Origin: Alphaproteobacteria bacterium
Lineage (GTDB): Bacteria > Pseudomonadota > Alphaproteobacteria > Caulobacterales > Aquidulcibacteraceae
Reading direction: 5' to 3'
Assembly: GCA_018971945.1 (NCBI GenBank)
Contig: JAGWZH010000007.1
Span: 1-61,945 of the forward strand
DNA: 61,945 nt
The notes below the pieces were generated by a model. The model had not been told where the DNA came from. It saw nothing but the letters and a program-made list of their open reading frames with translations, and made no database searches. A program made the position numbers and the translations under genes. Each line of letters begins with the position of its first letter. The first letter of the stretch is position 1. Shown here in pieces: positions 24,791 to 55,399 of the stretch.

Positions 24791-26360
<1,570 letters not shown>

Positions 26361-51787: not shown

Positions 51788-51948
51788 AGCAATTCCCAAG
51801 AAAAAAATCATTTTGTCTCAAAAAAATACAGTAGATGCTCTTACTTTTACTCTTTTCATACCAAACAGCTCTAAATCAGGCTCTGGCAAGGTCGATTTTG
51901 GCTTTTGCTAACTTAAAATAAACTGACCTAAAAGACGAGGAAAGAAAA
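51788..51948 (+). promoter_or_regulatory. AT-rich leader of the histone H1-like gene
   Basis: This 161-base stretch is far richer in A and T than its surroundings (runs such as AAAAAAATCATTTTG and AACTTAAAATAAACTG). A TAAAAT -10-like hexamer lies near 51912, and AGGAAAG precedes the ATG at 51949 by a few bases. The composition suggests a strong promoter or a nucleoid-protein binding site. Confidence 0.55.
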
Positions 51949-52449
51949 ATGACCACGAAAGAAACCAAGGCTCCGGCCGCCAAGAAGGCCCTCAAAGCCG
52001 CTTCAAAGCCTGCTGCGAAAACCGCTGCGAAGCCCGCCGCCAAAAAAACTGTGAAGGCCGCGAAGCCGGCTGCCGCCAAAGCCCCGAAGGCCAAGGTCGC
52101 CGCGAAGCCTGCCGTCAAGGCCGTCAAGGCCCCGAAAGCGGTGAAGGCTGTGGTGAAGGCCGTCAAGGCTTCGAAGCCCGCCGCGAAGACCGCTGCGAAA
52201 GCGGTGAAGGCGGTCAAGGCCCCGAAAGCCGCCAAGAGCGCTGCCAAGGCCGTGAAGGCCCCGAAAGCCGCCAAGAGCGCTGCCAAGGCCGTGAAGGCCC
52301 CGAAGGCTGTGGCCAAAACCGCGACGAAGGCGCCGAAAGCGTCAAAGCCGGCCGCTAAGCCCGCGAAGGCCTCCAAGACCACGAAGCCGGCGAAAGCCTC
52401 CGCGACGCGCGCCCCGCGCGTGTCGAAAAAGGCGCCTGCAACGCGCTGA
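51949..52449 (+). CDS. Histone H1-like Lys/Ala/Pro-rich DNA-binding protein
   Basis: The 166-residue protein consists almost entirely of Lys, Ala and Pro/Val in PAAK, AVKA and PKA motifs (for example KPAAKTAAKPAAKKTVKAAK), resembling the C-terminal tail of eukaryotic H1 and bacterial H1-like proteins such as Hc1 and AlgP. There is no folded domain, signal peptide or acidic segment. It should bind and condense DNA nonspecifically. Two identical 39-bp units repeat in its middle. It has its own AT-rich promoter region and a strong terminator, so it is probably a monocistronic, highly expressed gene. Confidence 0.9.
   Translation: MTTKETKAPAAKKALKAASKPAAKTAAKPAAKKTVKAAKPAAAKAPKAKVAAKPAVKAVKAPKAVKAVVKAVKASKPAAKTAAKAVKAVKAPKAAKSAAKAVKAPKAAKSAAKAVKAPKAVAKTATKAPKASKPAAKPAKASKTTKPAKASATRAPRVSKKAPATR
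52221..52298. repeat. Perfect 39-bp tandem duplication inside the H1-like gene
   Basis: Bases 52221-52259 and 52260-52298 are identical and encode a 13-residue unit (PKAAKSAAKAVKA) twice. The unit is a multiple of three, so unit gain or loss would change the tail length without a frameshift. Confidence 0.92.
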
Positions 52450-52462
52450 ACGGACCCGTGCG

Positions 52463-52497
52463 GGGAGCGCGCCATTTTCTCCTTCTGGTGCGCTCCC
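52463..52497 (+). terminator. Terminator after the H1-like gene
   Basis: GGGAGCGCGCC (52463-52473) pairs with GGTGCGCTCCC (52487-52497) with a single mismatch across a 13-base loop, 13 bases after the stop. It also separates the convergent esterase gene. Confidence 0.65.
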
Positions 52498-52509
52498 TTC
52501 CGGCCGGCC

Positions 52510-53400
52510 TTAGGCCCACCGGCGGGCCATCCAGGCCCCGGCGTCGGCGATGGCGGCCCGTCCTGGGGTCAGCATCGCATAAAATATGTGCCAGACATGA
52601 ATCATGTTTGGCCAAACCTCCATAGCGGCCATCACGCCAGCGGCCTCGGCTCGGGCCTGGAGGGCTTCTGAATCGCTCAACAAAATCTCATCGGCGCCAA
52701 CCTGGATCAGCATTGGCGGCAGCCCCCTCAAATCCGCCAAGAGCGGCGAGGCGTCTTGACCTGCGCGATCGATCTTTGAGCCCAGATAGGCTTCGGCGAA
52801 AGCTTCAAGACTTTGGGTCGTCAGGATCGGATCGGCTTGGGCGCGGGTTTTGTGGGAGCGCCCCGAGAGGGTCAGGTCGGCCCATGGGGACAGCAAAAGC
52901 AGCGCCCCGGGCATGGATTGGCCGGCGTCGCGGAGGCGAAGGGTCGCCGCCAACGCCAAGCCGCCGCCGGCGGAGTCGCCCGCCAAGATCACTCTGGAAG
53001 GGGGCACGCCCCTGGCTTCGAGAGCTTTGAGAGCCAGCAGCACGTCTTCGATCGCAGCAGGAGCAGGATGCTCCGGGGCGAGGCGATAGTCCAACGCATA
53101 GGCTTGCGCGCCAGCTGCTGCGGCCAGGTGGCTGACCAAACCCCGATGGCTTTGGGCCGACCCAACGCAATAGCCTCCGCCGTGCAAATACAAGGCCGCC
53201 ACATCAGTGCGCGCGCCGGGACCCAGATGGCGCTCGGCGGGACGACCCAACCCGTCCTGGGCTACGCTCCAAGCGTCCGCCAGAGGGCTTGTGGCGCCGA
53301 ACGCGTCCATCCGAGCGCGGCGATCCGCCCAGGGAACAAAGATGTCCTTTGGGGGAAGTGTCTGCTCGAGCACGGACCGCAACTGATCAATCTCGCGCAT
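52510..53400 (-). CDS. HSL-family alpha/beta hydrolase (esterase/lipase)
   Basis: The 296-residue protein has the hormone-sensitive-lipase signatures: oxyanion HGGG in ALYLHGGGYCVGSAQSHRGL, nucleophile elbow ILAGDSAGGGLALA, an acid near LIQVGADEILLSD and a histidine in NMIHVWHIF. It lacks a signal peptide. The substrate is unknown; relatives cleave short acyl esters. It converges with the H1-like gene. Confidence 0.9.
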   Translation of the reverse strand: MREIDQLRSVLEQTLPPKDIFVPWADRRARMDAFGATSPLADAWSVAQDGLGRPAERHLGPGARTDVAALYLHGGGYCVGSAQSHRGLVSHLAAAAGAQAYALDYRLAPEHPAPAAIEDVLLALKALEARGVPPSRVILAGDSAGGGLALAATLRLRDAGQSMPGALLLLSPWADLTLSGRSHKTRAQADPILTTQSLEAFAEAYLGSKIDRAGQDASPLLADLRGLPPMLIQVGADEILLSDSEALQARAEAAGVMAAMEVWPNMIHVWHIFYAMLTPGRAAIADAGAWMARRWA

Positions 53401-53712
53401 GCCATCCCTTCCCTATTGCCGTGTCATTGGGGCGCTCGTGGTCGTCGCACCGAGACTTTCCTCAGTTTGCAGAAACCGAGGAAGCCACACCCGATCTGCA
53501 CCCTCTGCACAAACCGTCCCGACGCGCAACGCGGTTTCGGGCCGAATGGCCGCGGCGTTGGGGCGCACGCCGCCCTGGATGCAAGCCCAAGGGGCCCCGG
53601 CGGCGACAGCGGCTCTGATCGGGAGGATTGGCAAGAGGGTCGGGGCAGCGCTCTCTCACCAGCCATGTTCATCGAGGGAAGGCCTCTGACGCCCTAAGGG
53701 TTTGGGCGCCAG

Positions 53713-53768
53713 GCGGACCAGCGGACCAGCGGACCAGCGGACCAGCGGACCAGCGGACCAGCGGACCA
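53713..53768. repeat. Octanucleotide microsatellite GCGGACCA, seven perfect copies
   Basis: Seven perfect head-to-tail copies of GCGGACCA occupy 53713-53768, followed by an imperfect GCGGCCAG. The unit is not a multiple of three, so slippage would shift any frame crossing it. It lies about 130 bases upstream of the outer-membrane-protein start. Confidence 0.97.
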
Positions 53769-53832
53769 GCGGCCAGGGCCCCTCAACGCCGCGGGGACCT
53801 GAGTCGTCGATGGATGTCAAGGATGTTTATAG

Positions 53833-53857
53833 TTTAACAATCTTTGCCGGCTATCCC
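53833..53857 (+). promoter_or_regulatory. Possible promoter of the outer-membrane-protein gene
   Basis: TTTAACA (53833-53839) and GCTATCCC (53850-53857) are separated by 10 bases, loosely matching the alphaproteobacterial TTGAC ... GCTA pattern. The GTG start is 40 bases downstream. Confidence 0.3.
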
Positions 53858-53897
53858 CTCGCCACTCATTCTTGCGCTCCAAAGGGGGATCGCCGTC

Positions 53898-54638
53898 GTG
53901 ACCAAACTCGCCGCCGCCGTCGCTGTGGGCTTCGCCTTCGCCGCCACACCGGCCTTCGCTCAATCCGTTACCGTCGATACTCCCGATATTCTGAAGGGTC
54001 GGTTCGAGGTAGAGACCGACAGCGTCTATGCGCACGAAGTCGTGGGCGACGAAGACGCCTATGCGCACCAAGCCGTCGCAGCTTATTCTTTTACCGACAA
54101 TCTTCGTCTTGGCGTCGGGGTCATTGTCAATGACCCCGTCGGAGAAGGCGCACGGGCGGACGCTTATCTGGCGGAAGTGCGGTTTGAAGGCCCTCGCCCG
54201 GCCTGGATGCCCTTCGAGTGGGGCCTGATCGGCTCCTATATCGGCGGCGGCCCCGACGGGGTCAATGATGCGGTGGCCTTGCGGGCGATCGCCGCCAGCG
54301 AGATCGGCCCGGTTACCTTGGCGGCCAATCTCGACGCCTTGCGCGAAGTCGGCGGCGGCGCCAGCGACGACGTCGCCTTCGACCTGCTCATTGAAGGACG
54401 GCTGCCGATTACCGAGGCCTTCATGGCGGCGCTGACCTATTCGGGCCAGCTCGGCACCGATGAAGAGTTCGGCGCACTCGGTTCTCTGGGACAGTATCTC
54501 GGACCAACGCTCTATGCGTCGAGACCGATCGGAGCCAACAGCGCTATCGGCTTGGAGGCCGGCCTGCTTTTCGGTCTTACCGAGGAAAGCGCCGATGCGA
54601 TCGGCAAGGTCAACCTGACCTGGGCGTCGCAATTCTAG
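53898..54638 (+). CDS. Predicted outer-membrane beta-barrel protein
   Basis: The 246-residue protein has a clear signal peptide (MTKLAAAVAVGFAFAATPAF, cleavage after AFA) and alternates short polar/aromatic strands (RFEVETDSVYAHEVVGDEDA, LRLGVGVIVNDPVG, EWGLIGSYIGGGPDG). It ends in KVNLTWASQF, with the terminal Phe of BAM substrates. I do not recognise the family; it could be a small porin-like or phenol-degradation-type (MetA-pathway) outer-membrane protein. The GTG at 53898 follows AGGGGG; a TTG at 53844 is also in frame. A tandem octamer lies upstream. Confidence 0.75.
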   Translation: MTKLAAAVAVGFAFAATPAFAQSVTVDTPDILKGRFEVETDSVYAHEVVGDEDAYAHQAVAAYSFTDNLRLGVGVIVNDPVGEGARADAYLAEVRFEGPRPAWMPFEWGLIGSYIGGGPDGVNDAVALRAIAASEIGPVTLAANLDALREVGGGASDDVAFDLLIEGRLPITEAFMAALTYSGQLGTDEEFGALGSLGQYLGPTLYASRPIGANSAIGLEAGLLFGLTEESADAIGKVNLTWASQF

Positions 54639-55399
54639 AGAGACCCCTCTCTGCTATGAGCAGGCGGGCCCAGGGGCGCCGCCTTGCGTCCCGAACCAGA
54701 GTATCGTGAAGGTCGCCCTCAAGCCCTTCACGACCTTCTGGCTCGATCGGGGCTGGACAAGCCGCCGAGCGTCAAACGACCCGGCGGCTGAGCAGGGCGC
54801 GCGCCCATGGATAGGCGCATCGTTTGGATCGGCCAACCAGCGATGACGGCGCAGAAGCAGCCGATTTGTTCAAAGAAGAAGCCATCCGCTTTCAAGAAGC
54901 CCCGCCCGGAGGTCGTGCAAACGGGACAGACCGCGCATCCAATGATCAGGGAGGCGGCGCATTGATCTTGTGTGATCGCCTCATGCCGGCGTCAGCTCCC
55001 TCCAGCTTTTCGCAGCGCCTTATGGCCTTGGTTTTGCGCCTTCAGGTTCTGTTCCATGGGGTTTCGTCCATTGGGGCTTTTGCGGTTAGGACTTTATGGC
55101 GCTTTGGGGACCCTTGGCGTGCAAGCGTTCGGGGCCGGCTTAAGGCGATCGCGCCCTCTTGGCGTTGACGGCGAACCAACGCGTTTTCGAAAAGCCCATT
55201 CAACGCCCCGGCCTTGCCTCGTCAGGCCATCGCTCTGAGACATTTGGGGGTGGCTTGGCCGGCCCAGCAACCGGCTCAAGCGCCCTGAGGCCGCTCGCTT
55301 CCGGCCCCCGAAACATTGCAAGCAGGCTTGCGTCGCGGTCCACTCGACGTGCAACAGCCCAGGTGGGAGCTCGCCGCCGCCGCAAGGCTCTCGAGGCGG
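54639..55399. other. 761-base gene-poor region with a strong hairpin
   Basis: No recognisable gene was found between the outer-membrane protein and lpd genes. TCGTGAAGG (54704-54712) and CCTTCACGA (54725-54733) form a perfect 9-bp stem with a 12-base loop, about 65 bases after the preceding stop, and may act as a terminator. Several plus-strand frames around 54824-55238 are open, one with a hydrophobic stretch, but none is convincing. Confidence 0.45.

Follow-up and report, generated by a model that had tools for sequence, protein, structure and literature searches.

A perfect octamer tandem array preceding a possible outer-membrane gene in an alphaproteobacterial genome rich in tandem repeats

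The window analysed here, a whole stretch of 61,945 nucleotides from contig JAGWZH010000007.1 of an Aquidulcibacteraceae genome (assembly GCA_018971945.1), contains a gap of 497 bp between two divergent genes, and inside this gap lies a tandem array of the octamer GCGGACCA. The features of the locus, in window coordinates, are the following:

52510..53400, minus strand: alpha/beta hydrolase gene (Abhydrolase_3, resembling hormone-sensitive lipases), the divergent neighbour, starting about 312 bp from the array
53713..53772, plus strand: perfect tandem array of GCGGACCA, 7.5 copies, the sole array of this unit in the genome
53769..53775, plus strand: imperfect terminal unit GCGGCCA, one base short, its first four bases within the perfect run
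53828..53833, plus strand: candidate –10-like hexamer TATAGT, weak and without a matching –35, within the AT-rich stretch 53821-53840 (75% AT)
53835..53837, plus strand: TAA stop in frame with the downstream gene, between the array and the start codon
53898..54638, plus strand: gene for a 246-aa secreted, possibly outer-membrane protein, with a GTG start, a Shine-Dalgarno-like GGGGG and, by eye, a signal peptide ending AFA|Q

Seven full and perfect units occupy 53713-53768, after which the bases GCGG carry the perfect period on to 53772; the seven perfect copies and one imperfect copy listed by the initial annotation agree with the sequence at 53713-53775. TRF assigned the array a copy number of 8.1 and a score of 121, and no perfect array in the window with a period of 1-12 is longer. 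In 200 simulated windows, perfect arrays of period 6-12 reached at most 3.5 copies compared to the 7.5 real ones, the simulations being drawn from our own third-order Markov model and not from that of Mrazek et al. 2007; the array is thereby longer than this random model allows, as is characteristic of the long simple sequence repeat (LSSR) class of 5-11 nt units. A 16-mer searched with up to two mismatches gave 6 matches, compared to 0.16 expected. The array is real and far above chance, and its near perfection implies that it is either young or maintained. One other perfect array with at least 3 copies, a length of at least 18 bp and a period of at most 12 occurs in the window, namely (CGGCGGG) with 3.3 copies at 26324-26346.

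From the end of the perfect run to the GTG start at 53898 there are 126 bases (130 from the last full unit, which ends at 53768), and this interval comprises a GC-rich stretch, then the AT-rich stretch at 53821-53840, and then the Shine-Dalgarno-like GGGGG. TATAGT lies 60 to 65 bases beyond 53768, and the initially reported spacings of about 65 bases to a promoter-like element and 130 bases to the start codon were both confirmed. Taking TATAGT as the –10 region would put the array 56 to 115 bases upstream of it. The accompanying –35 region is poor (CGTCGA at a spacing of 17) and a scan of 53300-54900 for sigma-70-like promoters returned 0 sites, so that the element previously described as promoter-like is weak, although a TATAGT is indeed found at the distance given. 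The array thus stands some 125 bp before the start codon and upstream of a weak –10-like element, with no promoter match. Two routes to phase variation had been proposed, via reading frame and via promoter spacing. Frame switching of the 53898-54638 gene is excluded because the in-frame TAA at 53835 separates the array from the gene and leaves it outside the open reading frame; a reading-frame phase-variable locus was accordingly rejected. A change of spacing within a core promoter is unsupported, because the array is located wholly upstream of the only AT-rich, –10-like element.

Homologues of the 246-aa protein were found in 10 of the 60 relatives searched, with a best identity of 34%. A Pfam scan of the protein itself matched no family, whereas its two aligned homologues gave PagL in one member (E 3.4e-4) and OMP_b-brl in one member (E 0.004). 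A profile of the protein with these two homologues found no match among PDB sequences, and a single-sequence AlphaFold model was uninformative (mean pLDDT 34). The designation as a surface beta-barrel is therefore retained in part: the signal peptide seen by eye and the families matched in homologues make an outer-membrane barrel plausible, but neither Pfam for the protein itself nor PDB corroborates it.

The neighbourhood of the gene differs from that in relatives. Among 29 other XerC loci examined (from 36 other genomes with a match), neither the hydrolase nor the outer-membrane gene gave a hit within flanks of up to 1.5 kb, and the XerC–Lpd segment spans 3.6 kb here (window 51788-55399) versus about 1.0-1.3 kb in the three relatives that show both genes. 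It looks as though the hydrolase and putative outer-membrane genes were inserted in this lineage or else lost in the three relatives. Because the XerC loci of relatives differ in neighbourhood, no aligned 'empty site' for the array was obtainable. A Lys/Ala/Pro-rich, histone-H1-like repetitive protein adjoins XerC at 51949-52449 of the window, and repetitive DNA beside XerC also occurs in several relatives. For the Lpd neighbour, the best 12 of 451 matching plasmid-collection records all come from alphaproteobacterial genera, in agreement with the placement given by the initial annotation. Within the window, an Rfam scan gave no family above threshold and a tRNA search found none.

The octamer is arrayed at a single place in the genome, on C184. 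A 12-mer, GCGGACCAGCGG, occurs at two other places, neither of which holds two full tandem copies. None of the 60 relatives, which belong to other genera and include the 10 with a homologue of the 246-aa protein gene, carries the octamer in two or more tandem copies, and a sample of 384 other genomes of the class yielded none with at least three copies. A shared octamer family was thus rejected, there being no second array in the genome, the relatives or the class sample. Elsewhere among bacteria, at least three copies occur in 21 contig stretches and in one viral contig, in a search that may omit records very near the genome of the window. The 21 stretches come from actinomycetes, Chromatiaceae, Bacteroidota and others, with no title among them naming an alphaproteobacterium, and the longest perfect runs in these records range from 3.0 to 10.9 copies. 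We infer that these arrays had independent origins.

To place the array against the background of its own genome, we considered 1,340,435 readable bases (39% of the genome) in 106 stretches that include the window, a further 15 stretches being all N. TRF reported 113 tandem arrays in this sample (84 per Mb), compared to 6 in a fourth-order Markov sequence of equal size, all periods counted, which is the kind of excess that marks an LSSR-rich genome. Intergenic arrays account for 57 of the 113, though only 13.4% of the sample was called non-coding; these counts are approximate because our own codon-score script, which served as the gene caller, overlooked XerC and placed a frame on the wrong strand at the histone-like gene. 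Intergenic units include heptamers (GACTGGC, CCAAGGT, GTCAGGG, CCTCAGA) and units of 8, 11, 12, 13 and 14 bp and longer; within the 5-11 nt range, period 7 occurs four times, period 8 once and period 11 twice. Most of the other intergenic arrays consist of 2-4 copies of 12-18 bp units. The claim that the array stands out in its chromosome is consequently unsupported, with some qualification. On one side are the many other arrays, two of them heptameric with more copies (10.7 and 10.3), albeit less perfect. On the other, the window array is the sole intergenic array with an 8-bp unit, one of only 12 of 57 with at least five copies and one of only 7 of 57 with TRF units of 7-11 bp, among which its score of 121 is the highest (runner-up, 114). 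When four units were searched genome-wide (GCGGACCA, GGTCAGG, CCTCAGR and GGACAGG), each was arrayed at a single place, which indicates that they arose on the spot and are not copies of one element. MutS and MutL are both present over cut-off, so that loss of mismatch repair was rejected as the cause of array abundance.

Two sets of relatives were used for comparison. The first comprised 396,493 bases in 20 stretches (17 of them from G033, and single ones from G013, G007 and G017) and contained 7 TRF arrays, 2 of them intergenic. For periods 5, 7, 8, 10, 11, 13 and 14, the present genome has 34 arrays (25.4 per Mb) versus 1 in these 396 kb (Poisson P ~5e-4), in a set that is largely one genome and has a GC content of 56.9% versus 63.8% here. 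The second set, 42 GC-matched loci (158,424 bases, 63.7%), had 0 arrays of the same periods (P 0.018); four of these loci (L008, L009, L013 and L018) lie inside stretches of the first set, and without them the count remains zero on 143,631 bases (Poisson P ~0.026). The sampled relatives, all from other genera, have far fewer arrays. In total the second set holds 20 arrays, which is denser than in this genome, and the period is a multiple of three in 18 of the 20; as a sample of all arrays it is unfair because most of these adjoin XerC, where the window has the Lys/Ala-rich histone-like gene.

The intergenic arrays show no sign of preferring promoters. Of those flanked by called genes (n = 50), 28 lie between tandem, 11 between divergent and 11 between convergent genes, compared with 27.1, 12.9 and 10.0 expected from intergenic sequence length (P = 0.82); the remaining 7 of the 57 were at stretch edges and were left out of this test. 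Facing genes were defined as the nearest within 500 bp of the 33 intergenic arrays with a TRF score of at least 75, yielding 29 genes. Pfam was run on 28 of them (26 plus the two neighbours of the window array), L105:12669-13451 being left out. Families were assigned to 19 of the 26, with 7 unassigned, and a single one of the 19 was of outer-membrane type, a VWA-domain autotransporter (L171). The remaining 18 are enzymes, a helicase, an exonuclease, transporters, channels, a motility protein and similar; gamma-glutamyltranspeptidase, peptidyl-tRNA hydrolase, an aminotransferase, UvrD and MFS are examples of facing genes. The distribution of intergenic arrays therefore reflects how much DNA is available and not where promoters lie, and the genes that the arrays face are mixed. 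A link of arrays to surface genes is unsupported, with one recognisably outer-membrane gene among the 19.

When coding arrays are counted too, 11 of the 158 real contig ends have an array within 60 bp, compared to 1.4 expected (P ~3e-7), and none of 54 artificial cuts does. The 11 are distributed as follows:

Arrays at contig starts: L064, L137, L169, L171, L174, L182, L184
Arrays at contig ends: L062, L133, L135, L164

Arrays thus tend to disrupt the assembly, which would be expected of long or variable ones, and the enrichment makes copy-number variation plausible, if indirectly. The window's own array was assembled through, away from a contig end.

Brucella and Mesorhizobium ciceri are alphaproteobacteria. 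Octamer arrays are already known from both (PMC1183211, PMC6749651). The Brucella HOOF-Print loci share with the present array an 8-bp unit in tandem; their allele sizes fit stepwise slippage, with recombination also named and mutation rates left undetermined there (PMC1183211). In Brucella, however, one shared unit recurs at at least eight loci (PMC1183211), whereas GCGGACCA is arrayed at one locus and the other arrays have other units; the same octamer was not found at several loci here. Mesorhizobium ciceri has an octamer family, AGGGGAGT, and 40.1% of bacterial satellites are described as having a unique sequence (PMC6749651). Several arrays per genome with unrelated units are also reported among such unique satellites (PMC6749651) and among the constant-size, variable-sequence repeats of Bacillus (PMC8161180), whose units are 52 or 20-21 nt in contrast to 7-18 nt and more here.

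LSSRs, with units of 5-11 nt, are longer than chance allows and abundant in scattered genomes (Mrazek et al. 2007, via PMC4679880 and PMC11868660), heptamers dominating long simple repeats in most genomes (Mrazek et al., via PMC4679880). The present genome is similar insofar as its arrays exceed chance and heptamers are the commonest of its 5-11 nt intergenic arrays. It differs in that 12-18 nt units are also abundant, in part because TRF accepts longer units at lower copy number, and the lineage is not known to be among the examples given in those sources (PMC4679880, PMC11868660). Envelope functions are listed among the categories not over-represented in repeat-associated genes (Guo and Mrazek, via PMC4679880). 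Heptamer arrays, intergenic and scattered, are described from Xanthomonas, Nostoc, Beggiatoaceae and other cyanobacteria, and Microcystis has a range of different repeating heptamers (PMC4692102, PMC4679880). In the repeats studied there, one consensus unit recurs at many places (PMC4692102, PMC4679880), whereas here each array searched genome-wide has its own unit. The heptamers of Xanthomonas occupy rather conserved places, which counts against easy instability, yet vary extensively in length (PMC4692102). Short tandem repeats are not enriched on average in bacterial genomes, though they are enriched at indels within species (PMC12699852); a repeat-rich genome is therefore an exception.

We consider the array to be, with good probability, a slippage repeat that arose locally in an alphaproteobacterial genome rich in repeats, and its effect on the neighbouring gene is probably small. 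A chance duplication of 8 bp in the divergent intergenic region would have grown by replication slippage (slipped-strand mispairing), and the product may have been tolerated because it lies within non-coding DNA. If the downstream gene is affected, this would be through the movement of upstream DNA in steps of 8 bp relative to the promoter. We infer a slippage origin, variability within the population and little function. Some observations fit an ordinary slippage repeat less well: most of the other arrays are unlike this nearly perfect one, which moreover sits in a divergent region near a possible envelope gene, a setting that most readily suggests regulation. The initial annotation is supported in its description of a slippage-prone array that precedes a possible outer-membrane gene and has a unit length not divisible by three, whereas special status and switching of the GCGGACCA array are not supported.

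One rival reading is that of a contingency locus, in which octamer copy number would tune transcription of the outer-membrane gene by altering the spacing between a regulator site and the promoter. The analogy is with the nadA TAAA tract of Neisseria meningitidis, which is distal upstream of a surface gene promoter, outside the reading frame and clear of the –35 to –10 interval (PMC2791445), just as the octamer array is distal-upstream of the sole AT-rich, –10-like stretch of what may be a surface gene. An 8-bp unit corresponds to roughly three quarters of a helical turn, so that gaining or losing one unit would also turn the upstream site around the helix. The nearly perfect copies, a unit length indivisible by three and the possibly outer-membrane product are consistent with such a role. 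However, the nadA tract has a 4-bp AT-rich unit, mapped NadR and IHF sites and a shown change in expression (PMC2791445), while the octamer array is known from sequence alone, with no identified operator and no match in the sigma-70-like scan. Further against it, the other arrays face mixed genes that are mostly not recognisably of the surface and show no promoter preference, tandem octamers are missing from all 60 relatives, including the 10 with a gene homologue, and the gene neighbourhood here differs from the one in relatives. A nadA-like effect on the 53898 gene is possible, position being the one argument for it, and a contingency locus of this kind is unlikely overall.

A broader proposal is that short intergenic arrays of unrelated sequence (7-8 and 11-18 bp) are still being seeded and expanded across the whole genome, rendering much of its regulatory DNA length-polymorphic in the population, and that the octamer array is one case in which this shows as a surface phenotype; this too we hold to be doubtful. 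Still less probable is selection for the sequence itself, as a multi-site binding element in the form of a repeated operator or of hairpins or slipped DNA. The GGACC blocks can pair around an A-A mismatch, and stacked hairpins appear in single-strand folds, but the folds are no better than those of dinucleotide-preserving shuffles (z 0.28 and 0.68), for which reason a folded-structure role was rejected; moreover, the unit forms no other array in the genome, the 60 relatives (at least two copies) or the 384 class genomes (at least three). An assembly artefact, with the copy number created by the assembler, is barely credible: although the genome is a 233-contig draft with arrays over-represented at contig ends, this array of 60 perfect bases has unique flanks in a 62-kb contig, is away from the contig end and should be spannable by ordinary short reads.

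If the locally arisen slippage repeats prove variable, the GCGGACCA array and the dozens of others would provide ready-made strain markers for this alphaproteobacterium, as well as a test bed for the effect of intergenic slippage repeats on expression outside host-adapted pathogens. The analysis also carries a caution, in that a striking repeat beside a surface gene says little before the genome's own repeat background has been counted.

Other heptamer-based arrays of this genome include CCAAGGT at L105:13814-13885, CCTCAGA at L182:17509-17583, GTCAGGG at L146:984-1021, GGACAGG with GGATACG at L128:17453-17546 and GACTGGC at L050:19620-19655, of which only that of L105 faces a called gene start within 500 bp. 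By eye, the G runs of (GTCAGGG)n could form a quadruplex. A perfect 12-bp array, CCGCCCCAGAGG, with 8.6 copies at L133:3899-4001, lies in a gap exceeding 900 bp that separates two called genes, and a gene for a patatin-like phospholipase follows 124 bp after it.
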